Source: Gemmatimonadaceae bacterium (GTDB taxonomy: Bacteria > Gemmatimonadota > Gemmatimonadetes > Gemmatimonadales > Gemmatimonadaceae). Taken from it: a stretch of 39,594 nt of DNA. This document shows positions 17,093 through 35,808 of this stretch, in pieces (within the stretch, counting starts at the first letter, position 1; each line of letters begins with the position of its first letter). The notes under the pieces were generated by a model. The model was not told the origin of the DNA. It searched no databases and saw nothing but the letters and a program-made list of their open reading frames with translations. The position numbers and the translations under genes are program-made. Location: positions 1 to 39,594 of the forward strand of contig JAUQWM010000027.1 in the NCBI GenBank assembly GCA_030835125.1, read 5' to 3'.

Positions 17093-17102
17093 CGAGGCCC
17101 CT

Positions 17103-17195: not shown

Positions 17196-17230
17196 GAGTG
17201 CCGAGCCACGAGTCACGAGTCACGAGCCAC
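17196..17230. repeat. Heptamer array, units GAGTCAC/GAGCCAC
   Basis: Five 7-bp units in register: GAGTGCC, GAGCCAC, GAGTCAC, GAGTCAC and GAGCCAC. It lies 68 bp upstream of the plus-strand permease start and uses a different unit from the neighbouring CAGAGTG array only 50 bp away. Confidence 0.85.
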
Positions 17231-17297
17231 GAAAGGGGTCCCAGCCAACCCTTTGAGGATTCGTCCTGTCACAGTCCTGCCCCAGACCGGAGACTTC

Positions 17298-19769: not shown

Positions 19770-19775
19770 CTCCAT

Positions 19776-21071
19776 TCACGCGGCTCCCGTCGACGATTCC
19801 GGTGCGCACGACAACGCGCGCTCGAGCAGCAGGCGTCGCTCGCGGGTGTTCTGGGTCATGAACGCGGCGCGCTCGAACTCCGACCGCGCTTCCGCGGTGC
19901 GGCCGAGCTTTCCGAGCAGGTCGCCCCGGACCGCCGGGAGAAGGTGGTAGTTGCGCAGCGCCGGGTCGTCGACGAGCTCGTCCACCAGCTCGAGGGCGGC
20001 CTCCGGCCCCTCCGCCATGCCGACCGCCACGGCGCGGTTCAACTCGATGACGGGTGACGGTGTCAGTTCAGCCAGCGCATCGTACAGCGCCACGATGCGA
20101 TGCCAATCCGTCTCTTCGGGCACACGTGCCCGGGCATGGCAGGACGCGATGGCCGCCTGGATCGCGTACGGACCGAGCGACCCGCCCAGGGCTTCGGCGC
20201 GCGCGAGGGCCGCCAACCCGCGCCCGATGAGCAGCCGGTCCCAGCGCCCACGATCCTGTTCCATCAGGAGAATGGGCTCTCCCGAAGGGCCCGTGCGCGC
20301 GCGGAGCCGCGACGCCTGCAACTCCATCAACGCCACCAGGCCGTGCACCTCCGGGTCGTCAGGCACCAGGCCGGCCAGGATGCGTCCCAGCCGGAGCGCG
20401 TCCTCGCATAACGCGGGTCGCACCCAGTCGTCCCCCGCGGTGGCCGAGTAACCCTCGTTGAAGACGAGGTAAATGACGCCAACGACCGAGGCGACCCGCG
20501 TCGCCCGTTCCGTGCCCCGGGGCGTCTCGAACGGCACCCGTGCCTCGGCCAGCGTGCGTTTTGCCCGTACGATCCGCTGCGCAATCGTCGGTTCGGGGGT
20601 GAGGAACGCTCTCGCGATCTCCGTGGTCGTGAGTCCGCCCAGCAGTCGGAGGGTGAGCGCGACACGAGCCTCGACCGACAGCACCGGGTGGCAGGCGACG
20701 AACAGCAGGCGGAGGAGGTCGTCGCCAATGTCGTCGTCGAGCGACTCGGCGAGGTCGTCCTCCACAGCCGGTTGCGCATCATCCATGGAGCGACCGATCT
20801 CCTCGTGCTTGCGATCCGCGATGGCCCGATGCCGGTGGAGGTCGATGGCGCGGCGCTTGGCAGCCTGCATCAACCAAGCGCCCGGATTCCGGGGGATGCC
20901 CGACTCCGGCCACTGCTCGAGCGCGGCGACCAGGGCGTCCTGCGCCAGGTCCTCGGCCACGCCGACGTCGCGGACGATGCGAACCAGCCCGCCGATGAGG
21001 CGGGCCGACTCGATGCGCCATACGGTCTCGATGGCACTACGATAGGCATCACCCTTAAGGGCATCAGGCAT
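19776..21071 (-). CDS. ECF sigma factor with long C-terminal extension (ECF42 type, DUF6596)
   Basis: A 431-residue RNA polymerase sigma factor. Region 2 includes AIETVWRIESARLIGGLVRIVRDVGVAEDLAQ and ALVAALEQWP. Region 4 contains VALTLRLLGGLTTTEIARAFLTPEPTIAQRI. The C-terminal half is the TPR-like extension of the ECF42 group, with GYSAT, then VHGLVALMELQASR, then YHLLPAVRGDLLGKLGRTAEAR. ECF42 genes are normally next to a DGPF/YCII protein, as here. The start lies inside a heptamer array: the ATG at 21071 follows GAAGGTGTG, and other array copies upstream offer the same signal in other frames. Target promoters unknown. Confidence 0.88.
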   Translation of the reverse strand: MPDALKGDAYRSAIETVWRIESARLIGGLVRIVRDVGVAEDLAQDALVAALEQWPESGIPRNPGAWLMQAAKRRAIDLHRHRAIADRKHEEIGRSMDDAQPAVEDDLAESLDDDIGDDLLRLLFVACHPVLSVEARVALTLRLLGGLTTTEIARAFLTPEPTIAQRIVRAKRTLAEARVPFETPRGTERATRVASVVGVIYLVFNEGYSATAGDDWVRPALCEDALRLGRILAGLVPDDPEVHGLVALMELQASRLRARTGPSGEPILLMEQDRGRWDRLLIGRGLAALARAEALGGSLGPYAIQAAIASCHARARVPEETDWHRIVALYDALAELTPSPVIELNRAVAVGMAEGPEAALELVDELVDDPALRNYHLLPAVRGDLLGKLGRTAEARSEFERAAFMTQNTRERRLLLERALSCAPESSTGAA

Positions 21072-21252
21072 CACACCTTCATGGGTATCAGGCATCAGGC
21101 ATCACACCCTTAAGGGCATCAGGCATCAGGCATCAGGCATCACACCTTCACGGGCATAAGGCATCACGCCTTCACGGGCATCAGGCATCGGGCATCACAC
21201 CTTCGCGGGCATCAGGCATCAGGCATCGGGCATCGGGACGTGGGCATAAGGG
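21047..21252. repeat. Composite array: 17-bp GCATCACACCTTCACGG cores plus GCATCAG heptamers
   Basis: Six copies of a 16-17-bp core (consensus GCATCACACCTTCACGG, with variants ending TTAAGG, TCATGG or TCGCGG) are separated by one to four GCATCAG heptamers or variants. On the minus strand each core reads as a GAAGGTGTG Shine-Dalgarno-like run followed by ATG. The leader and start of the sigma-factor gene are thus repeated several times. Each heptamer added or lost shifts the frame by one base. Confidence 0.88.
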
Positions 21253-21278
21253 TCAGCTGCTTTCTCCACCCTGACCGA

Positions 21279-21767
21279 TCACCCCTGATGCCTGATGCCT
21301 GATGCCTGATGCCTGTTGTCTGATGCCTGTTGCCTGTTGTCTGTTGCCTGTTGCTCCGCCTCCCGCCGCAGCCGCGCTTCCTTCGCGCGGAGTTCCGGCG
21401 TGAACTCGGCCCCGAAGTCCTCGGCCTCGAAGAACGGACGAATCTCGAGTTCGGACTCCCCTTCCATCGGGTTCGGGCAACGCTTCGCCCACTCGACAGC
21501 TTCCTCCATCGACTTCACCTGCCAGACCCAGTAGCCGGCGATCAGCTCCTTGGTTTCGGCGAAGGGTCCATCGATGACCGAGCGCTTCGCACCGTTGAAC
21601 CGGATGCGCTTCCCTGTGCTGGACGGGCGGAGTCCGTCGCCGGCGAGCATGATGCCCGCCTTCACGAGTTGTTCGTTGAACTCCATCATTTCGCTGAGGA
21701 GCTTCTCGGTGGGCAGGACGCCAGCCTCGGAATCGGCGTTTGCCTTGACCATGACCATGACACGCAT
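21279..21767 (-). CDS. DGPF/YCII-domain protein with repeat-encoded C-terminal tail
   Basis: A 162-residue YCII-related protein of the DGPF type that accompanies ECF42 sigma factors. It begins RVMVMVKANADSEAG and contains SVIDGPFAETKELIAGYWVWQV, then AVEWAKRCPNPMEGESELEIRPF. The usual domain ends near REAEQ. About 25 further residues are encoded by the adjoining heptamer array and show a 7-residue period (QQATDNR, then HQASGIR). The start at 21767 has GGAGG just upstream. Biochemical role of DGPF proteins is not established; a signalling role with the sigma factor is inferred from the conserved pairing. Confidence 0.88.
   Translation of the reverse strand: MRVMVMVKANADSEAGVLPTEKLLSEMMEFNEQLVKAGIMLAGDGLRPSSTGKRIRFNGAKRSVIDGPFAETKELIAGYWVWQVKSMEEAVEWAKRCPNPMEGESELEIRPFFEAEDFGAEFTPELRAKEARLRREAEQQATDNRQQASDNRHQASGIRHQG
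21285..21357. repeat. Heptamer arrays CTGATGC and CTGTTGC inside the YCII gene end
   Basis: Plus-strand CTGATGC units run from about 21285 to 21312, then mixed CTGTTGC, CTGTTGT and CTGATGC units to about 21355. The CTGATGC part is the inverse of the GCATCAG array at 21047-21252, so the spacer can fold into a long hairpin. It is translated as the C-terminus of the YCII protein. Confidence 0.88.
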
Positions 21768-21782
21768 CAGAACCTCCAGAAA

Positions 21783-21811
21783 TGGGAGATGGGAGACTTG
21801 GGACTGGGCTG
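21783..21811. repeat. Degenerate heptamer tract upstream of YCII gene
   Basis: GGGAGAT, GGGAGAC, TTGGGAC and TGGGCTG follow one another in a 7-bp register 16-44 bp upstream of the YCII start. The first units match the GAGATGG/CATCTCC unit found at 31.1 kb. The rest of the spacer to 21888 shows nothing recognisable. Confidence 0.6.
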
Positions 21812-21888
21812 GACAGTGTGGCCCCTCACCGACACGTCGAATGGGGCGGTCAGGAATCGACATACCCCGTGAGTTTCCATCCTCGCGT

Positions 21889-22380
21889 CTAGCGGCCGCG
21901 AGGAGGACCATCCGGATGTCGTTGGCACGCAGGGGGTTGCTCGACGCTCCAGGCCATGCTGGCGATCCGCCAACCGGCCTCGAGGCGCAGCATGGTGAAC
22001 AGGTCGACCCCACAGTGCGACCACTGTCCGTCCAGGTAGAGGTCGTAGGGGACCCACACCATGGCCAACCGGCCCGATACCAGCGCGCGAGGTGTGAAGC
22101 CGCGCTCGGTGATCGCCTGCCGGGGCTGCGTGGCTCGCTCCTGGGCTCGTGATCGCGCCGAGTACACGACCTGGCCGTTCCGCTCGCGCACCGAGAACGT
22201 CGTGGCCTGGTCCACCATGAGGTCCGTGAGCGCGACGAAATCACCCCTGGTGATTGCCGCGAGGGCAGAATCCGCCACCGCGATGGCGGCGGCCGAATCG
22301 CCGGGCACCCGTTGCGCGGCCAGTACCGCCGGCGCGCCAAGGCTCAGCACCGTCACTGCAAGCACCCGTCCGATGTTCAT
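21889..22380 (-). CDS. Exported NTF2-like (SnoaL/DUF4440-type) protein
   Basis: A 163-residue protein with a signal peptide (MNIGRVLAVTVLSLGAPAVLAAQ, cut near residue 23) and an NTF2-like cone fold. The first helix is AIAVADSALAAITRGDFVALTDLM, then the strands TTFSVRER, RLAMVWVPYDLYLDGQWSHCGVD, and WRIASMAWSVEQ. Such domains bind small ligands or are enzymes, and no catalytic residues can be assigned. The ATG at 22380 has GGAGGCAGG just upstream, better than an in-frame ATG 24 bp earlier. It is upstream of the YCII gene on the same strand. Confidence 0.75.
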   Translation of the reverse strand: MNIGRVLAVTVLSLGAPAVLAAQRVPGDSAAAIAVADSALAAITRGDFVALTDLMVDQATTFSVRERNGQVVYSARSRAQERATQPRQAITERGFTPRALVSGRLAMVWVPYDLYLDGQWSHCGVDLFTMLRLEAGWRIASMAWSVEQPPACQRHPDGPPRGR

Positions 22381-22469
22381 CCTGCCTCCGCTGGTGTGGG
22401 ACATGACCGTCCAGACCTGTAGCCCGCCGCTCGCTTCCTTAGCTTTCAGCCTCCCACATCAAGGTATCC

Positions 22470-24146
22470 GTGTCACAAGACGCCACCTCCCCCCGTGACT
22501 TCATCCGCGAAATGGTCGCGGCCGACGTCGCTTCCGGACGCTTCGGCCGGGCGATCAGGACGCGCTTTCCTCCCGAGCCGAACGGTTTCCCGCACATCGG
22601 CCACCTCAAGGCGATCTGCGTCGACTTCGGGGTCGCGAAGGAGTTCGGGGGGGCCTGCAACCTCCGGTTCGACGATACCAACCCCGCCGCCGAGGACGTC
22701 AAGTACGTGGAGGCGTTCCGGAAGGACATCGCATGGCTGGGCTTCACGTGGGACGCCGAGCTGTACGCGAGCGACTACTTCGAGCAGTTCTACCAGTACG
22801 GCGTGCTCCTGGTGAAGCGGGGGAGCGCGTACGTCGATTCCCAGAGCGACCAGGAGATCAAGGAACATCGCGGCACCGTGACCACGCCCGGGACCGAGAG
22901 CCCGTTTCGCAACCGGACCGTCGAGGAGAACCTCGACCTGCTCGCGCGCATGAAGGCGGGCGAATTCGCGGACGGTGCGCACGTGCTGCGCGGGAAGATC
23001 GACATGGCGCATCCCAACATGCTGATGCGCGACCCCATCCTGATGCGGGTCCTGCACGCCCATCATTACCGGCAGGGGGACGCCTGGTGCCTGTATCCGC
23101 TGTACGATTTCGCGCATCCCCTGAGTGATGCCATCGAGGGGATCACGCACTCGTTATGCTCGCTCGAGTTCAAGGACAACAACGACATCTACCGGTGGCT
23201 CATGCGCGAGTGCGGCTTCGACCGGCCGCCCGAACAGACGGAATTCTCGCGACTCGAGCTCGAGTATACGGTGATGAGCAAGCGGAAGCTCCTCAAGCTG
23301 GTCAATGAAGGCGTGGTGAGCGGCTGGGATGACCCGCGCATGCCGACAATCTCGGGATTGCGCCGCCGCGGGGTGACCGCGGACGGGTTGCGCGCCTTCG
23401 TCGAGACGGCCGGCGTTTCACGCAAGCCGCAGCACACCGAGCTGGCGACGCTGGAGCACGCGATCCGGAACGACCTCAACCTGCGGGTGCCGCGCGTGCT
23501 GTGCGTGGTCCACCCGCTCAAGGTCGTGCTGACCAACTACCCCGAGGGCCAGGTGGAGCAACTCGAGGCGTCGTACTATCCGCACGACGTCCCGCTCACC
23601 GGGTCGCGGCTGGTGCCGTTCTCGCGCGAGCTGTACATCGAGCGCGACGATTTCATGGAGGACCCGCCGAAGAAGTTCTTCCGCCTGGCGCCGGGGCGCG
23701 AGGTCCGGCTGCGATACGGCTACTTCATCACCTGCCAGGAGGTGGTGAAGGACGCCGCCGGGGAAATCATCGAACTCCGATGCACCTATGACCCGGCGAC
23801 CCGTGGCGGCGATGCGCCCGACGGCAGGAAAGTGCAGGGGACCATTCACTGGGTGTCGGCGCGCGGCGCGCTCGACTGTGAGCTGCGGCTCTACGACCGA
23901 CTTTTCACCGTCGCCGATCCCGATGCGCTGGACGACCCGAGGTCAGCCTTGAATCCGGACTCGCTCGTCGTCGTCCGGGGCGCGAAGATCGAGCCAAGCG
24001 TTGCGGCAGACTCCGCAGGCACACGGTACCAGTTCGAGCGCACGGGGTACTTCATCAGTGACGAACTGGATTCGCGCCCTGGATCGCTGGTCTTCAACCG
24101 GACGGTTGGTCTCCGCGACACCTGGGCAAAGGTGAAGCCCCGTTAA
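22470..24146 (+). CDS. glnS: Glutaminyl-tRNA synthetase
   Basis: Charges tRNA-Gln with glutamine directly. The 558-residue product has the class I HIGH motif as PHIGH (His42-His45) within RFPPEPNGFPHIGH and a KMSKS-like VMSKRKL near residue 270. It also has the GlnRS-type FDDTNPAAEDVKYV segment and a full C-terminal anticodon-binding beta-barrel region. The GTG at 22470 is preceded by AAGG. GlnRS rather than GluRS is supported by the overall match to the GlnRS-type catalytic core. Many bacteria use GatCAB instead. Confidence 0.95.
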   Translation: MSQDATSPRDFIREMVAADVASGRFGRAIRTRFPPEPNGFPHIGHLKAICVDFGVAKEFGGACNLRFDDTNPAAEDVKYVEAFRKDIAWLGFTWDAELYASDYFEQFYQYGVLLVKRGSAYVDSQSDQEIKEHRGTVTTPGTESPFRNRTVEENLDLLARMKAGEFADGAHVLRGKIDMAHPNMLMRDPILMRVLHAHHYRQGDAWCLYPLYDFAHPLSDAIEGITHSLCSLEFKDNNDIYRWLMRECGFDRPPEQTEFSRLELEYTVMSKRKLLKLVNEGVVSGWDDPRMPTISGLRRRGVTADGLRAFVETAGVSRKPQHTELATLEHAIRNDLNLRVPRVLCVVHPLKVVLTNYPEGQVEQLEASYYPHDVPLTGSRLVPFSRELYIERDDFMEDPPKKFFRLAPGREVRLRYGYFITCQEVVKDAAGEIIELRCTYDPATRGGDAPDGRKVQGTIHWVSARGALDCELRLYDRLFTVADPDALDDPRSALNPDSLVVVRGAKIEPSVAADSAGTRYQFERTGYFISDELDSRPGSLVFNRTVGLRDTWAKVKPR

Positions 24147-24374
24147 CCTCGCCCGGCATGCGGTCGCATCGCCCAGTCAAAGCCCGATCTGGTGTTTTTC
24201 CGCCAACCCGTGACCTTATTGGCGCGGTTCCTGCGCATTGATTGGTGAAGGACGCTGGTAGCGGTGCTCGAGCTGCTGGCACCCGGGGATCGGCACCGGA
24301 CTCCCACCCGGACCGGTCCCCGTGGCCTTCTCTCAGGCTCGAGGCTCGAGGCTCGAGGCTCGAGCCTGTCCGCT
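24147..24374. repeat. glnS 3' spacer with heptamer array GGCTCGA
   Basis: About 230 bp between convergent genes. 24201-24223 holds a weak inverted repeat (CGCCAA and TTGGCG). 24335-24366 holds four copies of GGCTCGA ending in GAGCC, which can fold as a hairpin; it lies nine bp beyond the stop of the minus-strand gene. The unit is identical to that near coaE at 1132-1155. No gene is seen. Confidence 0.75.
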
Positions 24375-24944
24375 CTACTTGTGGCTGTGTGCTCCCTGGC
24401 CACGTGCCATCGCCAGGTGGTGCGGTCCGTGATGGTCGCCGGTTGCCAGGATGCCGTGGAAGCCGAGTCCGCGAACCCGGGCGACAGCGGTGGCATTCGC
24501 CGGTACCGCGAGGATCGTGACGATTGCGCCACCCGCGGTTTCCTCGACGGTCATGCGCATGGAATCCGCGGGCATGATGGTGGTCGCATGCGCGCTCGCC
24601 ATGCGACGGATCGCTGCGACGGTCGTTCCCGTGCCGGTCACCGTGAAGCGCGCGCCGCCGGCGACCTGCTCCTGGCGCACTGCCGCCCGCATCGTGACGT
24701 CGTCCATGTCGATCAGGTGCTGTCGCAGCGCCTCGATGTTCACCTTCGACCAGTCGGTCGTGGAGTCGGCGCGAAGGATCGCGACAATTTCGGCGATCGC
24801 CCCGAACGCGGCCTGGCCGGGACGCGTCGGGACCGGCGCCGTCGCCGCGGGGTGCGTCATCCCGGGTGTGTGGACGTGGTCCTGTGCGCGGGCTTGCACG
24901 GGCACGAAGACGGCAATGGCTGCGATCAGGGCTCTGGAGTTCAT
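24375..24944 (-). CDS. Exported histidine-rich protein of unknown function
   Basis: A 189-residue protein with a likely signal peptide (SRALIAAIAVFVPVQARAQ). A region contains DWSKVNIEALRQHLIDMDDVTMRA, and a beta-rich domain contains FTVTGTGTTVAAIRRM. The end is rich in histidine (HHGPHHLA and HSHK), and the first mature residues (DHVHTPGMTHP) also hold His and Met. Metal binding is plausible from composition. I do not recognise a family. Confidence 0.6.
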   Translation of the reverse strand: MNSRALIAAIAVFVPVQARAQDHVHTPGMTHPAATAPVPTRPGQAAFGAIAEIVAILRADSTTDWSKVNIEALRQHLIDMDDVTMRAAVRQEQVAGGARFTVTGTGTTVAAIRRMASAHATTIMPADSMRMTVEETAGGAIVTILAVPANATAVARVRGLGFHGILATGDHHGPHHLAMARGQGAHSHK

Positions 24945-25288
24945 GACATGACTCGGCTGGCGTTGGACGACGTTTGCGAGGGTCCCGGGTTCCCATGAAC
25001 ATAAGGGACACGCCGGTGATCAGGTGGTCCGGCGCCGTTCCAACCCAGGGCGAGTCCGGGCGATCCCGATTCGCGCGACCAGCGTCGCGAGACTGACCGC
25101 CGCGACTCCACGACCGGTGAGACGTAACCAATCCGGCGCGACCATCAGTGCCTAACGAACATCCATTGGGAGTCGCTCACATTAATATCTGCTGACCATT
25201 GGGACGTTCCGGCCATGTGCGCGTCCTCACGTTGGGATCGCGCCGAGCGCGACCATGGGCTGGTGCCTGTCAATCCCGGAGACGTGCG
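24945..25288. other. Divergent spacer upstream of FIST gene
   Basis: About 340 bp between the minus-strand exported-protein gene and the plus-strand FIST gene. An AT-rich patch CATTAATATCTG near 25178 could be part of a promoter for the FIST gene, but no well-spaced -35 element is seen. No RNA gene or repeat is recognisable. Confidence 0.3.
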
Positions 25289-26428
25289 ATGAAGATCGAA
25301 CAGCGTCGGTGGACGCCGCAGGACGGGTGGAAGGTCGTGTCGACGCGCGACGACATGGAGGCGCCCCAGCTGGTGCTGTTCTTTGCCGCCTCGGACGCCA
25401 TGCGGGATCGCGACGCGGTGGAGGCATTGGCCGCCGCATGGCCGGGCGCGCACGTCCTTGGCTGCACGACATCCGGCGAGATCTGCGGCACCGAGGTCGG
25501 CGATGGCACCATGGTCGCCACCGCTATCCACTTCGAGCATTCGCGTGTGCACACCGTCTACGGTCGTATCGACACGGCCGCGGTGAGCGCTGCCGCCGGG
25601 AAGCGCCTGGCCGGTGAGTTGCCGCACGAAGGGCTGGTTCACGTGATGGTGCTCGCCGAAGGCCTCAACGTGAACGGTTCCGAGCTGGCGGCTGGGCTGC
25701 GCGCCGGGCTGCCGCCGACGGTCGCCGTCACCGGGGGCCTTGCCGGGGATGGTGCCGACTTCAAGCACACGAGCGTATACCTCGACGGCCAGGCCGATGA
25801 TGGGGGCGTGGCGCTGGTCGGCTTCTACGGTGAGCGGCTGCGCGTCGGATATGGTTCGCTGGGCGGCTGGGATTCATTCGGGCCGGAGCGGGTCGTAACA
25901 CGGTCCGAGGGCAACGAGCTGTTCGAACTCGACGGCGCGTCGGCGTTGGACCTGTACAAGGACTACCTCGGGGACCATGCCGCCGGCCTCCCGGCGAGTG
26001 GACTCCTCTTTCCACTCAGCCTCCGGGGCGAGGGAACGGATCCAGGACTGGTTCGGACCATCCTCGCCATCAACGAGGAGGCGAAGAGCCTTGTCTTTGC
26101 CGGCGACATCCCCGAGGGCCGGTACGCCCGGCTCATGAAGGCAAACGTCGACCGGCTGATCGACGGCGCTCACGGCGCCGCCAGCGCGAGCTACGAGGCC
26201 CTCGGCAGCAGCCCTCCCGAACTCGCGATCCTGATCAGCTGTGTCGGTCGCAAGCTCGTGCTCAGGCAGCGTGTGGAAGAGGAGCCCGAAAGCGTCAGGG
26301 ACGTGCTTGGTCCCGGTGCCGTCCTGAGCGGCTTCTACTCGTACGGTGAGATCGCGCCGTTTGCGAACTCGGTGAAGTGCGAGTTGCACAACCAGACCAT
26401 GACGATCACCACGCTCACCGAGCACTAG
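25289..26428 (+). CDS. FIST-domain sensor protein
   Basis: A 379-residue protein with FIST_N (about 20-225) and FIST_C (about 240-365) domains. FIST domains are proposed small-ligand sensors, probably of amino acids. Typical segments are LVLFFAASDAMRD, then AHVLGCTTSGEICG, then AVTGGLAGDGADF, then NELFELDGASALDLYKDYLGDH, and the C-terminal GFYSYGEIAPFANSVKCELHNQTMTI. The ATG at 25289 follows CGGAG. There is no transmembrane segment or output domain; two bases later a GGDEF-EAL gene begins, so it probably feeds the c-di-GMP protein. Confidence 0.92.
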   Translation: MKIEQRRWTPQDGWKVVSTRDDMEAPQLVLFFAASDAMRDRDAVEALAAAWPGAHVLGCTTSGEICGTEVGDGTMVATAIHFEHSRVHTVYGRIDTAAVSAAAGKRLAGELPHEGLVHVMVLAEGLNVNGSELAAGLRAGLPPTVAVTGGLAGDGADFKHTSVYLDGQADDGGVALVGFYGERLRVGYGSLGGWDSFGPERVVTRSEGNELFELDGASALDLYKDYLGDHAAGLPASGLLFPLSLRGEGTDPGLVRTILAINEEAKSLVFAGDIPEGRYARLMKANVDRLIDGAHGAASASYEALGSSPPELAILISCVGRKLVLRQRVEEEPESVRDVLGPGAVLSGFYSYGEIAPFANSVKCELHNQTMTITTLTEH

Positions 26429-26430
26429 TC

Positions 26431-28110
26431 ATGCACAAGCTGTTGCAGCGTCAGCTCCGACGTCACCTGGGGGGGATCGGGGCGGTACCCGCCCCCCTCG
26501 ATGCGTTCATTGCTGCGGTCGATGAAGCGTACCACCAGTCGGACACGGACCGTGCCTTTCTCGAGCACACCATGGACAAGGCGTCGCGCGAACTCATGGA
26601 TCGCCAACGCCAGCTCCAGCAAGCCCTGGCAAAGAGTCGGGAGACGGAGCACCAGCTGGCGCACCAGGCCCTTCACGATGCGCTCACGGCACTGCCAAAT
26701 CGCGTGCTGTTCCTCGATCGCGTCGAACACGCACTGGCCCGCGGTCCACGTTCGGGATCGGCCGTCGCCGTGCTGTTCATCGACCTGGACGACTTCAAGG
26801 GCGTGAACGACACGATGGGCCATGCCGCTGGCGACGAACTCCTCCGCGCCACCGCCGGCCGGCTTCGCCCCATGGTCCGCAGCAGCGATACCTGCGCCAG
26901 GCTGGGAGGCGACGAGTTCGCGATCGTCCTCGAGGACGCCAACTCCATCGAAGCGGCGCGCATCGTGGCCGAGCGGATTCTTGCGACGCTGCGCGAGACG
27001 TTTTTGCTTGGCGGCCAGCAGGTTTTCGTCGGGGCCAGCATCGGCATCGCGATGGCCGGCGCGTCCGAAACGGCGGCGGACCTCATGCGCAACGCCGACC
27101 TGGCGATGTATATGGCCAAGTCGGGAGGCAAGCATCGGGCCGTCGTCTTCGAGCCGTCGATGCACGCCATGGTCGCACGGCGCGTGGAGTTGGAGCAGGA
27201 CCTGCGTGGCGCGCTCGAACGCCACGAGTTCGTGCTGCACTTCCAGCCCATCGTGGAGATGGAGACGGGCAACGTCCTCGGCTTCGAGGCGCTGACGCGC
27301 TGGGAGCACCCGCAGCGTGGACGCGTGAACCCGCTGCAGTTCATTCCCATCGCCGAGCAATCGGGCGTCATCGTTGACCTCGGGCGCTGGATCCTCGCGG
27401 AGGCATGCCGCGAATGCATGACCTGGGAGGGTGTGTCGGACCCGGAGCACGCCATCTCGGTCACGGTGAATGTCTCGGGGAGGGAACTCCGGGAACCCGA
27501 CTTTGCCGACCATGTGCGGCGCGCCCTGAAAAGCAGCGGGTTGCCACCCGAACGCCTGGTCCTGGAGCTGACGGAGAACATCCTGGTGGCGAACGACCAG
27601 GCCATGATCGACATGCTGAAGTCGCTCAAGGCCCTGGGCGTCCAGTTGGCGATCGACGACTTCGGGACCGGCTATTCGGCGCTGTCGTATCTCCAGCAAT
27701 TCCCCGTCGACATCATCAAGATCGACAAATCGTTCATCGACAGCCTTGGGCACGACGGCGAGGAGTCGCCGCTCTCACGAGCGGTGTTGTCGCTCGGCAC
27801 CGCGCTCAGCATGCGGACCATCGCCGAGGGTGTCGAGACCAGGGGGCAATTCGGACGCTTGCGCGAACTGGGATGTCACTATGGCCAGGGGTACCTGTTT
27901 GCCAAGCCGATGCCCGCGCAGGGCGTGCCGTCGTTCCTGAAACTCCATCGCAGCGAGGTGATTCCCTCTCGTGACCTCAAGGTGCTGAATGGACACGGGC
28001 CCGACCTCGTCGTGCTCCCTCCGTTCGGCACATCCATGCAGGAACGGCTGGCTGGTGCGGCGCCGGCGGAGGTGCCATTGCAGCACAAGAGGGCACTCAC
28101 GGCGGTCTGA
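26431..28110 (+). CDS. GGDEF-EAL dual-domain c-di-GMP protein
   Basis: A 559-residue cytoplasmic protein with both c-di-GMP domains. An N-terminal coiled-coil-like stretch (about 30-85) precedes GGDEF, with DALTALPNRVLFLDRV and the active GGDEF at residues 159-163. The EAL domain begins FVLHFQPIVEMETGNVLGFEALTRWEHP with EAL at residues 286-288. It retains LTENIL, IDDFGTGYSALSYL and AEGVETRGQ, the metal and loop motifs of active phosphodiesterases. Both activities are therefore possible. Upstream is the FIST gene, separated by 2 bp. Confidence 0.95.
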   Translation: MHKLLQRQLRRHLGGIGAVPAPLDAFIAAVDEAYHQSDTDRAFLEHTMDKASRELMDRQRQLQQALAKSRETEHQLAHQALHDALTALPNRVLFLDRVEHALARGPRSGSAVAVLFIDLDDFKGVNDTMGHAAGDELLRATAGRLRPMVRSSDTCARLGGDEFAIVLEDANSIEAARIVAERILATLRETFLLGGQQVFVGASIGIAMAGASETAADLMRNADLAMYMAKSGGKHRAVVFEPSMHAMVARRVELEQDLRGALERHEFVLHFQPIVEMETGNVLGFEALTRWEHPQRGRVNPLQFIPIAEQSGVIVDLGRWILAEACRECMTWEGVSDPEHAISVTVNVSGRELREPDFADHVRRALKSSGLPPERLVLELTENILVANDQAMIDMLKSLKALGVQLAIDDFGTGYSALSYLQQFPVDIIKIDKSFIDSLGHDGEESPLSRAVLSLGTALSMRTIAEGVETRGQFGRLRELGCHYGQGYLFAKPMPAQGVPSFLKLHRSEVIPSRDLKVLNGHGPDLVVLPPFGTSMQERLAGAAPAEVPLQHKRALTAV

Positions 28111-28180
28111 TCGACGGGACGGCCAGTCCTGGGCGTGCCGGGACCAAAGCAGAGCCAGTAGCTTTCTACCGGGTTGATCT

Positions 28181-30196
28181 GTGTCTCGCTTCATTCCGGT
28201 CATGGCCTTCGATTCGAACGGTGACGCGGTCCCGCGTCCAGATGAGTGCCCGGCACTCGGTCGCGTGGTGGCGACCGAGCGGCGGCCCAACACCCCGCAC
28301 GAGTTCCATTTCTGGACCGCGCTCGACTCGCCGGTGGGCATCGGGACCATCGTGCGCGTGGAGGGCTCGCATCCCATCGATGGGCAGATCCCGCGCATCT
28401 ACGGGGTCGTCACCGACGGCCTGAGCTACACCGACCTGCAGACGCCACTCCACGACGTGATCGGCGCCGACGGTTCGCCCGACCACGCCGCGGCCGCCGC
28501 GACGGAGCGCCCCGAGATCCGGCTCTACACCGCCGCCGTCCTGCGCCAGTATCCCGAGGAGCCGTTGCAGCCGGTCCCGATGGGGCAGGTGTTCCTCGCC
28601 GGCGCCGATGACGTCGCGATGGCGCTGCGCATGGACTCGTACCTGCGCGCCGAGCACCGCACCGCGATCCCGATTGGCGTGTATCGCGCCGGCCCGACCA
28701 ACTCACCGATCTACCTCGACTCCGACTTCCTGCTCGGGCCCGAGGCAGCGCACATGAACATCACCGGCGTGTCGGGGCTGGCGACCAAGACGAGCGCCGT
28801 CGAGTTCCTGCTGGCATCGATCTTCACGCACTTCCCGGAGTCCCGGGGCACCGTTGCCGCCGTCTGCTTCAACGTGAAGGGGCCGGACCTCTGCTTCCTG
28901 GACCAGCCCGGCCGCATCGACGACAGCGACCGGGAGATGTACAAGCTGATGGGAATCGAACCCAAACCGTTCGAGCACGTGCAATACTACGCGCCCTACA
29001 CCGCGCGCGGACTCGCCCTCAACACGCTGCGCTCCAACCCGGCGCTGTCGCATAACGTCGCGCCCCTGACCTGGGGACTGACCGACGTCCTTCGCTTTGC
29101 CCCCGTCCTGCTCAACCGCGACGATGTCGATGCCAAGGCCGACGCCCTGATCGACTTCATCGGCGATCGCATCGTCGACCACGACTTCTACGACGAGAAG
29201 CTCGGGAACGGGAAGCGGTACCGGGTCCAGTCGTTCGCCGACCTGGAGGAGTGGTTCCGCGACCTGCTCGACTTCATGGAGGAGCGGGGGAACGAGGCCT
29301 GGCGGACCCACCACGTGGCGACGATCCGGAAGGTGCGCAATCGACTCGTCAACATCGCCCAGCGATGCAAGGGACTCGTCACGGATGCGGGCGTCCGGTC
29401 CGACCTGCCGTGGGGCACCTTCCAGGACAGGTCGGTGTACGTGATCGACATCGCCAACCTCGAGGAAGACGCCCAGGACCTGGTGTTCGCGCGCGTGGTG
29501 TCGCTGCTCCGCGAGCACCTCGAGCGCCGGACGCTTGGCGTGAATCACCTGGTCGTGTTCGTCGATGAATTGAACAAGTACGCGCAGTCCGACGGTCCGG
29601 ACACGCACGTGCGCCGGATGCTGCTCGATATCTCGGAACGCGGCCGGTACCTCGGCCTGGTGCTCTTCGGCGCGCAGCAGTTCCGGTCGCAGGTGCATCG
29701 TCGAGTCGTCGGGAACGCGGCCACCGCGGTCTTCGGCCGGATGGACCCGGACGAACTGGCGACGCCGGGGTATTCGGTCCTCGGACCGGCCACCAAGACG
29801 AAGCTCGCCACACTGGACAAGGGACAGTTGATGGTCAGGCACCCGCACTTTGCCCAACCGATCTTCGTTCGCTTCCCCCGCCCGCCGGTGCTGTCCGGTC
29901 GCGAGGGCGCCGACCGCTTTCCCCAGGCCGAAGAGCCATCCCTCACGGAGGCCGTGCTGCGTTCCCTGCGGGCGCTGGACTCCTCGATCCAGCTGAGCTT
30001 CGTCGAGGACCTCATCGCGCTCTACGAGGAGCACGAAGTCCTGCGGGCCCGCGATGCCACGGTGAAGACCCGGCCACAGGACGTGAAGGCGTACTTCAAG
30101 GCGCAGTTCCGCCGGGTGGTCCGCAGCGAACAGGCGCCCGTCGCTCCCCGCCCGTCCATCCGGGCGACGCCCCTGGACGACCCCTACGGGGACTAG
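28181..30196 (+). CDS. HerA-type ATPase (DUF87 family)
   Basis: A 671-residue protein whose N-terminal beta-barrel-like region starts GRVVATERRPNTPHEFHFW, as in HerA HAS-barrels, followed by a P-loop ATPase. The P-loop region reads TGVSGLATKTS (Gly196 to Thr204), with one residue more than the canonical GxxxxGK[ST]. The Walker B motif is HLVVFVDELNKYA (Asp462, Glu463). ISERGRYLGLVLFGAQQFRSQV then resembles the sensor/arginine region of HerA/FtsK. HerA translocates on DNA ends with NurA and Mre11-Rad50. The GTG at 28181 has weak ribosome-binding context; an ATG at 28202 is the alternative. Likely first gene of the cluster. Confidence 0.85.
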   Translation: MSRFIPVMAFDSNGDAVPRPDECPALGRVVATERRPNTPHEFHFWTALDSPVGIGTIVRVEGSHPIDGQIPRIYGVVTDGLSYTDLQTPLHDVIGADGSPDHAAAAATERPEIRLYTAAVLRQYPEEPLQPVPMGQVFLAGADDVAMALRMDSYLRAEHRTAIPIGVYRAGPTNSPIYLDSDFLLGPEAAHMNITGVSGLATKTSAVEFLLASIFTHFPESRGTVAAVCFNVKGPDLCFLDQPGRIDDSDREMYKLMGIEPKPFEHVQYYAPYTARGLALNTLRSNPALSHNVAPLTWGLTDVLRFAPVLLNRDDVDAKADALIDFIGDRIVDHDFYDEKLGNGKRYRVQSFADLEEWFRDLLDFMEERGNEAWRTHHVATIRKVRNRLVNIAQRCKGLVTDAGVRSDLPWGTFQDRSVYVIDIANLEEDAQDLVFARVVSLLREHLERRTLGVNHLVVFVDELNKYAQSDGPDTHVRRMLLDISERGRYLGLVLFGAQQFRSQVHRRVVGNAATAVFGRMDPDELATPGYSVLGPATKTKLATLDKGQLMVRHPHFAQPIFVRFPRPPVLSGREGADRFPQAEEPSLTEAVLRSLRALDSSIQLSFVEDLIALYEEHEVLRARDATVKTRPQDVKAYFKAQFRRVVRSEQAPVAPRPSIRATPLDDPYGD

Positions 30197-30204
30197 GGAG
30201 TTCC

Positions 30205-31041
30205 TTGAGGCGCTGGCGGCATTTCCTCCCCGGGATCCTGGCCCTGACCCTGTTGCCGCTGGAACGGGGACGTGCCCAGTCGCCGGCCGTCCTGCTGCAG
30301 GTGCGGCCGCACGCCGGTGACACCATCCGGGTCAGGCTGGACCAGTCGGTCGAGATCACGGGCGCCCCGGGGGCGGACGGCCGGGTCGCCGCCGAATCGG
30401 GAACGCTGGTGCTCCTGGCGATGCTGGCCGTGGAATCGGTCGATGCCGCCGGCGCGACGATCGTGAGCGTGACCGACTCGGTCCGCGTCAGTTCGCCACC
30501 GACATCGGCGTCAGGCGCCGTGCTGGCGTGGGCGGCGGCGGCCGCCAACCGGACCGTCCGCTTCCGGGTCGCGCCTAACGGGGCCGCCTCGGTGCCCTCG
30601 GCCCGGGGCCGCGCGCTGCCCTCGGGCGCCCTGGCCACGCAATTGCCGGCAACGCTCCCCACCCGGCCGATCGCCCCGGGGACGTCGTGGACGAGCAACC
30701 TCCAGGTGCCGCTGGCGAGTTCCGTGGACCCCGGGGGCGCCGCCACGCTGGTGGCCACGTTCACCCTGGATTCGCTCTCGCCAACGGGAGAGCTGGCGTT
30801 CCTGTCCCTCCGGGGTCGCCTGATCAAGGGGGACGCCGACCCCCGGGGCACGACCGAACAGCGCAACCGGGTCGAGACCTCGGGAACGGTGCAGGGCCAG
30901 ATCCTGCTCGACCGGCGGCGGGGATGGATCACCGACGCCCGCACCACGTTCTCCCTGTTCTCGCTGGTCTCCCAGGCGGATCCCGCCAGGGCGCCGGTGC
31001 GGGTGCGGATGACGATCTCGCAGTGGATGCGGGCGATGTGA
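30205..31041 (+). CDS. Exported beta-rich protein of unknown function (DUF6263-like)
   Basis: A 278-residue protein with a basic start and hydrophobic signal segment (LPGILALTLLPLERGRAQ). A mature region follows, rich in alternating Val/Ala/Thr strands. The TTG at 30205 is preceded by GGGAG, and the HerA stop lies 8 bp upstream. It resembles the DUF6263 type of periplasmic proteins in pattern, but I cannot confirm this. It sits within a DNA-repair cluster without any obvious role in it. Confidence 0.55.
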   Translation: MRRWRHFLPGILALTLLPLERGRAQSPAVLLQVRPHAGDTIRVRLDQSVEITGAPGADGRVAAESGTLVLLAMLAVESVDAAGATIVSVTDSVRVSSPPTSASGAVLAWAAAAANRTVRFRVAPNGAASVPSARGRALPSGALATQLPATLPTRPIAPGTSWTSNLQVPLASSVDPGGAATLVATFTLDSLSPTGELAFLSLRGRLIKGDADPRGTTEQRNRVETSGTVQGQILLDRRRGWITDARTTFSLFSLVSQADPARAPVRVRMTISQWMRAM

Positions 31042-31154
31042 GACGGGAGATGGACGATCCGGGACGTCGGCTCACGCCCTGATTCTCGCGGATCCCCCGG
31101 GGAATCGGCTCTCCGGCGAGGACGATCCGGATCAGGATGTGGAAGGTGATCTCG

Positions 31155-31182
31155 CATCTCCCATCTCCCATCTCCCATCTTT
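31155..31182. repeat. Heptamer array, unit CATCTCC
   Basis: Three exact CATCTCC units plus one variant (CATCTTT) end five bases before the GTG start of the Mre11-like gene. No purine-rich Shine-Dalgarno lies between. GGGAGATGG, the inverse of the unit, lies at 31045-31053 just after the stop of the upstream gene. Confidence 0.9.
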
Positions 31183-31187
31183 CAGCC

Positions 31188-32381
31188 GTGCGCCTCGTCC
31201 ACCTCTCCGACCTCCACCTCGGCTACCGCCAGTTCCAGCGGCAGACGCCCTCCGGGATCAACCAGCGGGAGGCCGACGTCGCGAGCGTCTTCCGCGCCGC
31301 GATCGACAAGGTCATCGAGATCAGGCCGGACATCGTGCTCTTTGCGGGGGACGTCTTCCACAACGTGCGGCCGTCCAACCCGGCGATCCTCCTCGCGTTC
31401 GCCCAGTTCTCCCGCCTGGTGAAGGCGCTGCCGGACGCGATCATCGTCATGGTGGCGGGGAACCACGATGCCCCGAGGTCGGCCGAGACGGTCTGCATCC
31501 TGCGGCTCTTCACGCCGCTCGGGATCCACGTCGTGGACACCGAGGCGAAGCGGCTCAGCTTTCCCGAGCACGACCTGTCCGTGCTGGCGGTGCCCGATAC
31601 GATCGCGCCCCGGCCGTCGCTGATGCCCGATCCGGCCTTCGGCCGCAACATCCTCGTCATGCATTCCGAGTTGCGCGGGATCATCCCGCTCTCGGCGGCC
31701 GACTCGGAGCGCGCGGCGCTGCAGGTGGACCCCAGGGAAATCGGCTTCGACCGGTGGTCGTATGTCGCGATGGGCGAGTACCACATCCACCGGAAGCTCC
31801 ACCAGAACGCCTATTACTCCGGCGCCATCGAGTACACGAGCTTCAACATCTGGGGTGAGCGCCAGGAGGAGAAGGAGGCGCGACTCAAGGGCAAGGGGAT
31901 CGTCGAGTATGACCTGGACCAGCGCGCCAAGGTGTTCCACGCGCTGGCGCCGGCGCGGATGCTGGTCGACCTGCCGCCGATCGACGCCCGCGGGCATACG
32001 GCGCCGGAGGTGGACGCGAGGATCCGCCAGAACGTGGAGACGTGGCCGGGCGGGATCGACGATCGCATCGTCAGGCAGGTGGTGATCGACATCCCCCGCC
32101 ACGTGTCGCGGGAACTGGACCAGCGGGCGTTGCGCGAGTTCAAGCGTCGCGCGTTGTCCTTCCAGCTCGACACGCGCCGCCCCGAGGTGCTGCGCCAGTC
32201 GGGGGCGGGGGCGGCCGGCCGCAAGGCATCGCTCAACGAGATCGTCCGCGACTGGCTCTGGTCCCGCACCCTTCCGCCCGACGTCCCGCGGGAGCCGCTG
32301 GTCGAACTCGGGCTCCAGTACCTCGCGCTGGCCGAGACGGCGGAACACGACGCGCTCGCCGCGCCGGTGGACGCCGCGTGA
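31188..32381 (+). CDS. Mre11/SbcD-type DNA exonuclease
   Basis: A 397-residue metallophosphoesterase of the Mre11/SbcD type, the nuclease partner of Rad50/SbcC. It has all five phosphoesterase motifs: SDLHLG with Asp8 and His10, LFAGDVFHN with Asp55, VAGNHDAPRS with Asn92 and His93, ILVMHSE, and GEYHIHRK. I chose the GTG at 31188 because it gives VRLVHLSDLHLGY, the normal N-terminus; the earlier frame is translated heptamer array. GTGA overlap with the next gene shows coupling. It resembles archaeal Mre11 neighbourhoods more than the E. coli sbcDC pair because HerA is close by. Symbol uncertain. Confidence 0.93.
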   Translation: MRLVHLSDLHLGYRQFQRQTPSGINQREADVASVFRAAIDKVIEIRPDIVLFAGDVFHNVRPSNPAILLAFAQFSRLVKALPDAIIVMVAGNHDAPRSAETVCILRLFTPLGIHVVDTEAKRLSFPEHDLSVLAVPDTIAPRPSLMPDPAFGRNILVMHSELRGIIPLSAADSERAALQVDPREIGFDRWSYVAMGEYHIHRKLHQNAYYSGAIEYTSFNIWGERQEEKEARLKGKGIVEYDLDQRAKVFHALAPARMLVDLPPIDARGHTAPEVDARIRQNVETWPGGIDDRIVRQVVIDIPRHVSRELDQRALREFKRRALSFQLDTRRPEVLRQSGAGAAGRKASLNEIVRDWLWSRTLPPDVPREPLVELGLQYLALAETAEHDALAAPVDAA

Positions 32382-34837
32382 GGCTCAACAGCCTTCAGCT
32401 CACGAACTTCCGGCAGCACGCCGACTCGCGCATCGTCTTTGACGCCGGCCTGACCGGCATCATCGGGCCGAACGGGGCGGGGAAGAGCACGGTCCTCGAG
32501 GCGATCGCCTGGGCGATGTACGGCCAGTCCGCCGCCCGCGGGACGCGCGACTCCATCCGGAACGTGCGTGCGGGCGCCCGGGCCCCGGTGCGCGTGGAGC
32601 TGGACTTCGACCTCAACGGCCACCGCTACCGCGTGATCCGCGGGCTCAGCAGCGCCGAGTTGTACCTCGATGGCGGGAGCGAGCCGATCGCGACCACCAT
32701 CACCGACGTGACAGAGCTCCTGGCGCGGCGACTCGGCATGACCCGCGCCGAGTTCTTCCACACCTACTTCACCGGGCAGAAGGAACTGGCGGTCATGGCC
32801 GCCATGGCGCCGTCCGAGCGCGCACAGTTCCTGTCGCGGGTCCTGGGCTATGACCGGATTCGCGCGGCCCAGGGGCTGGCCCGTGAGCGCCGCAAGCTGG
32901 TCGGCGCCGAGATCGCCGGCGTGAAGCAAGTGATGCCGGACGCGCAACTCGTCGACACGCTCCTCCGCGAGTCGGCAGCGCGGCGCAAGGAATCCGCGAA
33001 GCGCCGGACGATCGCGGAAAAGGACCTGCGGGACGCCCAGGCGGCGCTGGCCCTGATCGCCCCGCAATGGGAGGCGGCCCAGCGCGCCCGCGAGGCGCAG
33101 CAGCAGCTGGTCTCTGACCTGCGCCTCGCCGAGAACACCGTCGCCTCGCTGGTGCGCGAACTGGATCGTGCCACGCGGGACCTCGAGGAGGTATCGAAGT
33201 CACGCGCCGAGCTGGAGGCGATCGCCGCGGAACTGGCCCCGCTCAACGAGGTGGTCGACGAGTATCGCCGGCTCGATGACCTCGGTCGCGAGGAAGGGCG
33301 GCGGCGCACCCTGGCGGAGGCGCTGCGCGCGCTGTCCGAGGAACTGGGCACACTCCGCACTCGTCAGGCAGCGCTGGCGGCGGTGTCCGGCCAGCAGGAT
33401 CCGGCGACTGTGTCGCTCCACCGACGGACCCTGGAGGCCGAGGAGGTCGCGGCGAAGTTCCAGGCGCGCCAGAACGAGTGGGTGCGCGACCAGCAGGAGG
33501 CCGCGACGCGGCGCGATGCGCTCCGCCTGCAGTACCAGGACGTGAAAACCCAGCGCGATCGGATCGTGGACCTGGGCGCGGACGGGATCTGCCCGACATG
33601 CCAGCGCGTCCTCGGGGAGCACTTCCGGACCGTCTACGATGGCCTCGAGGAGCAGCTGGAGACCATCGCCGTGGATGGGAAGTACTTCGCCACGCGCGTG
33701 GAGCAGCTGGAGCCGATGCCACCGGACCTGAAGCTCCTCGACGAGCAGCGAAAGGCGCTGGTCCACGAGCTCGCTGAACTGGAGCGCCAGGTCGCGAAGG
33801 CGCAGGCGGCAACGACCGAACTGGCGCAGGTGGGGCGCGAGGTGTCCGCGAAGGAACAGCGCCATGACCAGCTGACGCGGGAGCTGCGGGAAATTCCGTC
33901 GGGCTTTGACCCCATCCGGCACGAGGAACTCGAGCGCCAGGTGCAGCGGCTCGGTCCCCTGAACGAACAGGCCACCCGGCTGAGCGCGCGCATCGATCGC
34001 GAGCCGGCGCTGCGCGAGGAGCACGCCCGAAGGATGCACGAACTCGCCGCCGCCCGCGGGCGGATGAGCGAGTTGGCGCTCCGCCTCGACGAGACGCAAT
34101 TCTCGGAGGAGGATGTCCAGCGCCAGAAGCAGGAGTACGAGGAAGCCGTCACCGCGCAACAACGGGCGGAACTCGCGATGCAGGCGGCGACTTCCGATGA
34201 GGCGCGCGCCGCGGAGGCCGTCGCGAACGCCGAGCAGAAGCGGATCGAGCTGGAACGGGCCCGCGAGATGCACGCGAAGCTCGAGGCGGAAAAGCGGATG
34301 CACGAGGAGCTGGATCGTGCCTACACCGACCTCCGCACCGACCTGAACTTCCAGTTGCGTCCCGAATTGTCCGACCTGGCGAGCCGGTTCCTGAACCAGC
34401 TGACCGACGGCCGGTATGCAGAGCTGGAGCTGGACGACAACTACAACCTGGTCGTCCTGGAGGATGGCGTGCCGAAGCCCGTGATTTCCGGCGGCGAGGA
34501 GGACCTCTCCAACCTGGTCCTGCGCCTCGCCATTTCGCAGATGATCGCCGACCGGTCCGGGCAGAACTTCTCCCTCCTCGTCCTGGACGAGGTGTTCGGC
34601 TCGCTGGACGTGGCGCGTCGCCAGAATGTCGTCGACCTGTTGCGGCGGCTCGAGGATCGGTTCGAGCAGGTGATCCTCATCACGCACATCGAGGGCGTGA
34701 AGGACGAACTCGATCATGTGGTCCTGGTGGATTACGACGACCAGGCGGGCGCGTCGCGCGTGAGGCAGGTGGAGGTCGCGGTCCCGGACCTGGACGACCT
34801 GGGTGCCGATGCCCTCGCCGCCGGGGCGGAATCATGA
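32378..34837 (+). CDS. Rad50/SbcC-type ATPase
   Basis: An 819-residue SMC-like ATPase, partner of Mre11. The N-terminal Walker A is GPNGAGKST (30-38). Two coiled-coil arms flank the central zinc hook CPTC (Cys405, Cys408). The C-terminal half has the signature ISGGEEDLSNL near 703 and Walker B FSLLVLDEVFGSLD near 733. The compact length and single hook are typical of archaeal or bacterial Rad50 of this group rather than the larger E. coli SbcC. The GTG overlaps the upstream TGA; the stop overlaps the GNAT gene start. Confidence 0.93.
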   Translation: MRLNSLQLTNFRQHADSRIVFDAGLTGIIGPNGAGKSTVLEAIAWAMYGQSAARGTRDSIRNVRAGARAPVRVELDFDLNGHRYRVIRGLSSAELYLDGGSEPIATTITDVTELLARRLGMTRAEFFHTYFTGQKELAVMAAMAPSERAQFLSRVLGYDRIRAAQGLARERRKLVGAEIAGVKQVMPDAQLVDTLLRESAARRKESAKRRTIAEKDLRDAQAALALIAPQWEAAQRAREAQQQLVSDLRLAENTVASLVRELDRATRDLEEVSKSRAELEAIAAELAPLNEVVDEYRRLDDLGREEGRRRTLAEALRALSEELGTLRTRQAALAAVSGQQDPATVSLHRRTLEAEEVAAKFQARQNEWVRDQQEAATRRDALRLQYQDVKTQRDRIVDLGADGICPTCQRVLGEHFRTVYDGLEEQLETIAVDGKYFATRVEQLEPMPPDLKLLDEQRKALVHELAELERQVAKAQAATTELAQVGREVSAKEQRHDQLTRELREIPSGFDPIRHEELERQVQRLGPLNEQATRLSARIDREPALREEHARRMHELAAARGRMSELALRLDETQFSEEDVQRQKQEYEEAVTAQQRAELAMQAATSDEARAAEAVANAEQKRIELERAREMHAKLEAEKRMHEELDRAYTDLRTDLNFQLRPELSDLASRFLNQLTDGRYAELELDDNYNLVVLEDGVPKPVISGGEEDLSNLVLRLAISQMIADRSGQNFSLLVLDEVFGSLDVARRQNVVDLLRRLEDRFEQVILITHIEGVKDELDHVVLVDYDDQAGASRVRQVEVAVPDLDDLGADALAAGAES

Positions 34838-35808
34838 CCCTCGCCCGACCTGCGCATCGCGGCGCCGAGGCTCGCGGGCCGGCGCCGGCGACGCACGCCG
34901 ACATCGACGAGCTCAATCACGTCTTCAGCGACGCGTTCACGGACCGGTATCGCAAGGATGGAATGACCGGCGTGCGCGTGCCCCAGCTCAACCCCGTGAT
35001 CTGGCGGTACGCGATCGACGACGCCGACGGCGGCGCGCTGGTGTGGCGCGGCGATGCCGGAGACATCATCGCGTTCAACATCGCGCACGCCTCCGGTGCC
35101 GAAGGATGGATGGGCCCCCTGGCGGTCCATCCTGACTGGCAGGGGATCGGCCTGGGGAAAGCCGTGGTGCGAGCGGGCGTCGAATGGCTCCGCGCGCGGC
35201 GGACCTCGATCATCGGCCTGGAGACCATGCCCCGGACGATGGACAACATCGGGTTCTACTCCGCGCTGGGCTTCAATCCGGCACGCCTGACGATTACGGT
35301 GACGGTCGAGGCTGCCGGTGCGGACGCGCCCGTTTCGCTGCTCTCGCGCATGCCGGCGTCGCATCGCGACGACCTCGTCGACGCCTGTCGCGAGATCACG
35401 GAGGCACGCCTCGCCGGGTACGACTACTCGAGGGAGATCCGGCTGACCGCCGAACTCGGGCTCGGGGACACCGTGCTCCTCGAACAGGCCGGTCGGGTGA
35501 AGGGATTCGCGATCTTCCACTCGGTGCCGCTCGTCGAGGGGCGGGCCAGGGAGGAGATGCGAGTCCTCAAGCTGGTGGTGGAGCGCGAGGAGGACCTCGC
35601 GGAACTCGTGAGGCTGTTATCCGTGGCGGCGCGTCGCACCGGCACGCGTCGACTCGCCCTTCGTGCGCAGGGGGAGTACCCGGGCGCCTACCGCCGCCTC
35701 ATCGCGCTCGGCGCACGTGTGCGGTGGACCGACCTCCGGATGGCTGTGGAGGGCCAACCCGAACCCGTCGCGCGGACGGGCGTATTGTACTCGAACTGGG
35801 AGATCTGA
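34834..35808 (+). CDS. Double GNAT-domain N-acetyltransferase
   Basis: A 324-residue protein with two GNAT folds. The first (about 10-150) has the acetyl-CoA-binding segment WMGPLAVHPDWQGIGLGKAVV, the Gln/Gly-x-Gly loop, followed by LGFNPA. The second (about 170-310) is a weaker GNAT-like half (FAIFHSVPL, then LVRLLSVAARRTG, ending RLIALGARVRW). The ATG overlaps the Rad50 stop (ATGA), so it is translated with the Mre11-Rad50 pair. Its substrate is unknown; acting on DNA-processing proteins would be only a guess from position. Confidence 0.8.
   Translation: MTLARPAHRGAEARGPAPATHADIDELNHVFSDAFTDRYRKDGMTGVRVPQLNPVIWRYAIDDADGGALVWRGDAGDIIAFNIAHASGAEGWMGPLAVHPDWQGIGLGKAVVRAGVEWLRARRTSIIGLETMPRTMDNIGFYSALGFNPARLTITVTVEAAGADAPVSLLSRMPASHRDDLVDACREITEARLAGYDYSREIRLTAELGLGDTVLLEQAGRVKGFAIFHSVPLVEGRAREEMRVLKLVVEREEDLAELVRLLSVAARRTGTRRLALRAQGEYPGAYRRLIALGARVRWTDLRMAVEGQPEPVARTGVLYSNWEI

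Follow-up and report, generated by a model that had tools for sequence, protein, structure and literature searches.

A likely DNA-end-processing operon of archaeal layout, with HerA, NurA, Mre11, Rad50 and an order-specific putative acyltransferase, in a Gemmatimonadaceae bacterium

DNA-end processing in bacteria is usually described in terms of RecBCD/AddAB or RecJ-RecQ, and a four-gene break-processing set is best known from heat-loving archaea. In Sulfolobus, Pyrococcus and Thermococcus this set forms a herA-nurA-mre11-rad50 operon (PMC2288612). Does a bacterial locus with a HerA-like ATPase, Mre11, Rad50 and an acetyltransferase-like protein encode the same machinery, and does the last gene belong to it? 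We analysed a window of 39,594 nucleotides from a Gemmatimonadaceae bacterium (contig JAUQWM010000027.1), from a genome of Gemmatimonadaceae type with a GC content of 68%. The cluster at 28181-35808 lies entirely on the + strand, and its genes have a coding-type GC3. We consider it likely that the locus represents a bacterial HerA-NurA/Mre11-Rad50 DNA-end-processing operon of archaeal layout, together with an order-specific acyltransferase linked to Mre11-Rad50. Its features are as follows.

11747..12730, + strand: nurA, a divergent NurA nuclease of 327 aa, from profile and fold; GTG start assumed.
12731..28180, no strand assigned: the 15.4-kb block between nurA and herA, placed outside the module from its annotated genes and from gene adjacency in relatives.
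28181..30196, + strand: herA, a Deinococcus-type HerA translocase of 671 aa, from a profile match to Deinococcus radiodurans HerA (drHerA) and aligned ATP-site residues.
30205..31041, + strand: an exported DUF6263-like protein (DUF6263 E 2e-5, under the family cut-off).
31188..32381, + strand: mre11, from a Metallophos match, a match to archaeal Mre11 and the adjoining rad50.
32378..34837, + strand: rad50, 819 aa with a CPTC zinc hook, from NCBIfam Rad50 (E 8e-64) and archaeal Rad50 structures.
34834..35808, + strand: a tandem GNAT acyltransferase of 324 aa with C-terminal SNWEI, from Acetyltransf_1 (E 9e-12) and two GNAT domains.

The initial annotation had placed a HerA-like ATPase, an exported protein and overlapping mre11-rad50-GNAT genes side by side, and each of these genes was recovered in that arrangement. 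The open reading frame of mre11 begins with an ATG at 31137, and a GTG at about 31188 gives a better fit to its homologues. The GTG start of rad50 at 32378 overlaps the mre11 stop by 4 nt and was taken in place of 32042, where the longer open reading frame begins, and the ATG of the GNAT at 34834 overlaps the rad50 stop by the same distance. Pfam and NCBIfam scans returned Metallophos and SbcD/Mre11, AAA_23 and Rad50, Acetyltransf_1 and a weak DUF6263. They were blind to both HerA and NurA, and family membership of these two proteins was therefore taken from profiles of solved structures in the PDB and from folds.

A profile built from 11 HerA relatives identified drHerA (7F6D/7WRW/7WRX) as the sole significant solved chain, with an E-value of 4.7e-57. 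Along a single-sequence alignment the two proteins have an unusual Walker A in common (GVSGLATKTS in the window, GISGVATKTS in drHerA), and counting along this alignment equates K203, T204, K233, D236, D462, E463 and R489 with K175, T176, K217, D220, D487, E488 and R513, the ATP-site residues of drHerA (PMC9960219). The Walker A Lys and Thr, the ASCE acid, the Walker B Asp-Glu and the trans-acting Arg were invariant in the profile. Conservation does not extend to two residues with which drHerA contacts DNA, R495 and R552, which on our reading of the alignment are replaced by S470 and T528; the gripping of DNA may therefore differ in detail from that in drHerA. Judged by its sequence, the protein is a genuine Deinococcus-type HerA and a putative hexameric DNA translocase.

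Some signals would fit an unrelated conjugation or defence ATPase that happens to lie near mre11-rad50: the HAS-barrel model PF09378 found no match in the genome, a Pfam scan of the protein returned no match, and PADLOC reported a weak match to mads_8. Residues 14-303 do align with residues 3-298 of drHerA, a range that includes its HAS domain, so that an N-terminal HAS-barrel may be present. Against an unrelated ATPase, drHerA is the only significant solved relative, the unusual Walker A is common to both, and the gene is linked to nurA, mre11 and rad50 in several phyla and under several gene orders. We rejected the conjugation-ATPase reading on these grounds and regard an incidental, unrelated ATPase as extremely improbable. 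The best 80 relatives by score were Gemmatimonadota wherever the record named a phylum. A further HerA relative is encoded by a phage, Marinitoga camini virus 1 (KP836355.1, 38549-40207; 28% identity over 85% of the query), where a nuclease that associates with Rad50/Mre11 is annotated along with it.

A NurA-like gene had been proposed 16 kb from the cluster, and it was located at 11747-12730, 15.4 kb upstream of herA. The Pfam NurA model did not match its product, a result that reflects the sequence threshold only. A profile of 20 sequences matched Deinococcus NurA (drNurA; 7f6d_H, E 9e-7) and Thermotoga TM1739 (1zup, E 0.004) in the PDB. The predicted structure (pLDDT 88) was matched by Foldseek to 7f6d_G, 1zup and 2ygk, and VIA-align superposed it on 1zup with Z 20.0 (rmsd 3.4 A, 250 residues), on 7f6d_G with Z 19.3 (4.0 A, 272 residues) and on 2ygk with Z 14.5 (3.2 A, 205 residues), against Z of about 9 for unrelated nucleases. 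The catalytic residues of drNurA include the Asp D53 and the Lys K201. In the window's protein D70, placed through the alignment with TM1739, is kept in 109 of the 112 copies, and K209, which corresponds to drNurA K201 given an inferred 20-residue tag offset in the alignment, in all 112. Profile and fold thus confirm the gene as nurA; its product is predicted to have the RNase H-like NurA fold with catalytic-type residues, and is a putative nuclease.

We surveyed the gene neighbourhoods of this HerA family, as the initial annotation had suggested, and found that its linkage to nurA, mre11 and rad50 recurs across Gemmatimonadota and in other phyla. Among 60 relatives, HerA was present in 47 and NurA in 42, and NurA never occurred without HerA. 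In a sample of 298 genomes of the phylum, all 166 NurA-positive genomes were also HerA-positive, although these genomes share descent and a formal p-value for the co-occurrence would overstate their independence; 22 HerA-positive genomes gave no NurA match. Most relatives have nurA immediately before herA, at a distance of at most 150 nt in 102 of 113 loci. In the window's genus the two are 15.4 kb apart, and smaller splits occur in two other genera (L017, L024). The intervening block encodes an AMP-ligase, two MacB-type permeases, a sigma factor, a YciI-like protein, a GlnRS-type synthetase, a FIST protein and a GGDEF-EAL protein; in a same-genus genome, too, this AMP-ligase comes after nurA. 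Because the synteny reaches unrelated genes, adjacency alone is weak evidence.

Several smaller observations were made around herA. The FIST-domain and GGDEF-EAL genes (25199-28110) stand directly before herA. L053, from the same genus, lacks them at that place, which points to either a recent gain here or a loss in L053. Four loci of family f2 (L046, L047, L048 and L049, from genomes G048, G040, G052 and G059) hold HerA and mre11-rad50-GNAT with no detectable NurA near HerA, and in two of them a conserved protein of 169-186 aa adjoins herA. Mutual exclusion between HerA and the AddAB/RecB-like domain PF12705 was also considered; the domain occurred in 26 of the 60 genomes, in no clear opposition to HerA.

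The two genes downstream are more tightly bound to each other. Both mre11 and rad50 were present in 117 loci and lay at most 50 nt apart in every one; their adjacency held in 28 of 28 cases in family f1 and in 16 of 16 in f2. A start/stop overlap of 4 or 1 nt is available in 80 loci for mre11-rad50 and in 68 for rad50-GNAT, and the proximity of both pairs is far beyond chance. The Metallophos match of Mre11 had an E-value of 2.5e-9, and its best solved relative was a Methanocaldococcus-type Mre11 (E 1e-16). Its metal-ligand positions D7, H9, D54, N91, H158 and H198 are kept. Position 196, in contrast, is a Glu in the window; 112 of 118 copies carry a His there, as part of the GHxH metal-site motif, and in five further copies the residue is Glu or Asp. 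This substitution may change the nuclease or may be tolerated. A search for the same-genus Mre11 in an incomplete genome, made to check E196, returned only a weak, unrelated match. Rad50 matched archaeal Rad50 structures with E 2e-33, it carries the motifs GPNGAGKS, SGGEE, LDEVFG (Walker B) and CPTC, and the zinc-hook residues C405 and C408 are present in 105 of 105 copies.

The GNAT follows Mre11-Rad50. It was found in 59 of the 60 relatives, including those without HerA and NurA, and in 167 of the 298 phylum genomes, all 167 in the window's order. In the genomes that lack HerA the mre11-rad50-GNAT trio is intact, which also rules out the GNAT as a HerA partner. Families f4 and f9, conversely, have herA, mre11 and rad50 and no GNAT. 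Hence, the GNAT tracks Mre11-Rad50, not HerA-NurA, and its origin or recruitment falls within this order.

The predicted structure of the GNAT (pLDDT 91) comprises two GNAT domains, and the acyl-CoA motif Q/RxxGxG/A and a Tyr general acid are present. The N-terminal domain contains QxxGxG and Y142, with Q103, G106, G108 and Y142 nearly invariant. The protein is thus modelled as a two-domain putative acyltransferase. The best fold match was the Pyrococcus horikoshii tandem GNAT 3ddd (Z 25.9, rmsd 3.0 A, 268 residues), followed by eukaryotic N-myristoyltransferases (NMT) at Z of about 20, with an alignment that runs to GNAT residue 323 of 324, paired with NMT residue 496. These proteins have the same two-domain fold, but their identity to the window's GNAT is 9-15% and they have no known link to Rad50. 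The C-terminus is exactly SNWEI in 93 of 101 copies, and the other eight are one residue off. Since the catalytic base of NMT is its own C-terminal carboxylate (PMC7048800), the near-invariant SNWEI suggests, by analogy, either a similar catalytic use or a docking tail.

Whether this protein acts on DNA-end processing at all is a question of near-even odds. It may simply be a passenger, an acetyltransferase for small molecules or unrelated proteins that is translated from the mre11-rad50 message, and we give this reading roughly the same odds as a function of whatever kind in end processing. The GNAT superfamily is very large and varied, and distant full-length relatives on plasmids occur in unrelated contexts, such as Streptomyces L178. 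On the other hand, rad50 and the GNAT lie at most 50 nt apart in 97 of 103 loci while the next neighbour changes: adjacency to rad50 held in 26 of 27 cases in f1 and 15 of 16 in f2, against 11 of 25 and 1 of 13 for the gene after the GNAT. Furthermore, the gene is kept where HerA-NurA has been lost, and it is strongly conserved overall. That it modifies the Mre11-Rad50 complex is speculation. In the most specific version the tandem GNAT, co-translated with Rad50, would use its own near-invariant C-terminus in the catalytic cleft, as in N-myristoyltransferase, to acylate Mre11, Rad50 or another protein present at the break, and would thereby control DNA-end processing; this version appears quite unlikely.

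The GNAT had been described as lying outside known sets, and we indeed found no described set that contains one. It is a strict partner of rad50. Literature searches on GNAT with Rad50 or Mre11, and on Gemmatimonadota with HerA or Rad50, returned nothing relevant; they covered few subscription papers and are weak evidence of novelty. Possible control of bacterial Mre11-Rad50 through acylation can be addressed directly with a GNAT whose gene is so firmly tied to rad50.

The four other genes proved to be more widespread. The initial annotation had compared the cluster with the archaeal end-resection set, and HerA, NurA, Mre11 and Rad50 are indeed present and linked, but other bacteria have them too. 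Within the same class, families f5 and f6 carry a diverged herA-mre11-rad50-nurA in one run (L163, L166, L168, L171). Records of a plasmid collection contain nurA-herA-sbcD-sbcC in Chlorohelix (L180:6912-14152) and two cyanobacteria (L181:6949-13949, L182:6828-13990), and herA-sbcD-sbcC-nurA in Streptomyces (L183:7512-15081) and Nonomuraea (L179:7824-14522), the last of which, at 11.85 Mb, is probably a chromosome. Complete cassettes thus occur, besides Gemmatimonadota, in Chloroflexota, Cyanobacteriota and Actinomycetota, some of them on plasmids. The NurAs of these cassettes are called hypothetical where annotated; our profile detected them with E-values of 1e-26 to 1e-49, which are flattering because they were computed against only 19 test proteins, and with bit scores of 81 to 157. 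The archaeal-style set is therefore a bacterial cassette with a range of at least four phyla. It has stayed hidden because Pfam misses the NurA genes and records list them as hypothetical.

Comparison with the closest known systems shows what is new. The archaeal operon encodes the same four proteins together, and archaeal structures are the closest solved ones to the window's Mre11 and Rad50. The bacterial cluster differs from it in having HerA and NurA of Deinococcus type, a GNAT gene after rad50 and, in many cases, an internal gene for an exported protein; in the window's genus, moreover, nurA has moved away from the rest. NurA-HerA of Deinococcus radiodurans (7F6D, PMC9960219) provides the closest solved HerA, with the same ATP-site residues and Walker A, and together with TM1739 the closest NurA; the papers on it consulted here describe the pair without mre11-rad50 or a GNAT. 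In Oceanithermus profundus a bacterial hepA(herA)-sbcD-sbcC cluster has been published, with herA followed by sbcD and sbcC (PMC5448004), and the part of that description available to us mentions neither a GNAT nor a phylum-wide survey. Hence, the new element is the order-specific GNAT, and the other four genes make up a bacterial variant of an already known set.

The reaction scheme for this operon is borrowed from the Deinococcus and archaeal NurA-HerA, with gene content, linkage, predicted folds and active-site residues supplied by our own data. Mre11-Rad50 would bind a broken end and nick or trim it, the HerA hexamer would pump the duplex into a NurA dimer, and NurA would degrade it. The outcome would be a 3' tail for RecA, or clearance of the DNA. 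As for the GNAT, we infer that it would most likely acylate something tied to the action of Mre11-Rad50. The two outcomes have precedents, since Deinococcus NurA-HerA resects ends to a product with a 3' tail (PMC9960219), and Thermococcus HerA-NurA degrades both strands; its authors doubt a role in resection, and an antiviral one is proposed (PMC12977600).

The latter finding bears on the possibility that the cassette is mainly directed against invaders, so that HerA-NurA and Mre11-Rad50 would destroy linear DNA of foreign origin instead of resecting breaks in the chromosome. Related cassettes on plasmids, the one in Chlorohelix with TIR and Swt1-HEPN genes beside it, are consistent with such a role, as is the NurA-like fold of TdpB in TdpAB (8wfd, 8wet; Z 12.5 to the window's NurA). 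However, this NurA is clearly nearer to those of Deinococcus and Thermotoga (Z 19-20), PADLOC matches were only weak or generic, and throughout the order of the window each gene occurs once, on the chromosome, and shares conserved synteny with housekeeping genes. We therefore consider a mainly anti-invader function fairly unlikely, and favour DNA-end processing. The operon would then be a second, testable end-processing machine in a large, little-studied phylum. The Chlorohelix cassette also has ImmA/IrrE beside it, and the Streptomyces cassette lies next to ImmA/IrrE and TIGR02678/TIGR02680 genes.

The exported protein had been left unexplained in the initial annotation, and it can now be placed as a recurrent neighbour that is not required. 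Its TTG start lies 9 nt past the herA stop, and a Sec-type signal peptide was recognised by eye. In the window's family, DUF6263-like exported proteins often occupy the place between herA and mre11; other families lack them. A required part was rejected because it is missing from many otherwise intact clusters, and we read it as a recurrent, dispensable passenger. Family f9 has, at the position between herA and mre11 (L148:6042-8319, L149:7094-8456, L150:10525-11915), two exported proteins, of which just one shows faint similarity to DUF6263, and a DUF2269 membrane protein. Envelope genes recur inside this DNA-repair cluster. Finally, many relatives carry a group of three genes behind the GNAT, namely folE (GTP cyclohydrolase I), a PTPS-family gene and an SDR gene. 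In the window the corresponding regions are 1278-1844 and 36348-37520; folE is found at the start of the window, at a distance of 35 kb, which is another sign of rearrangement.
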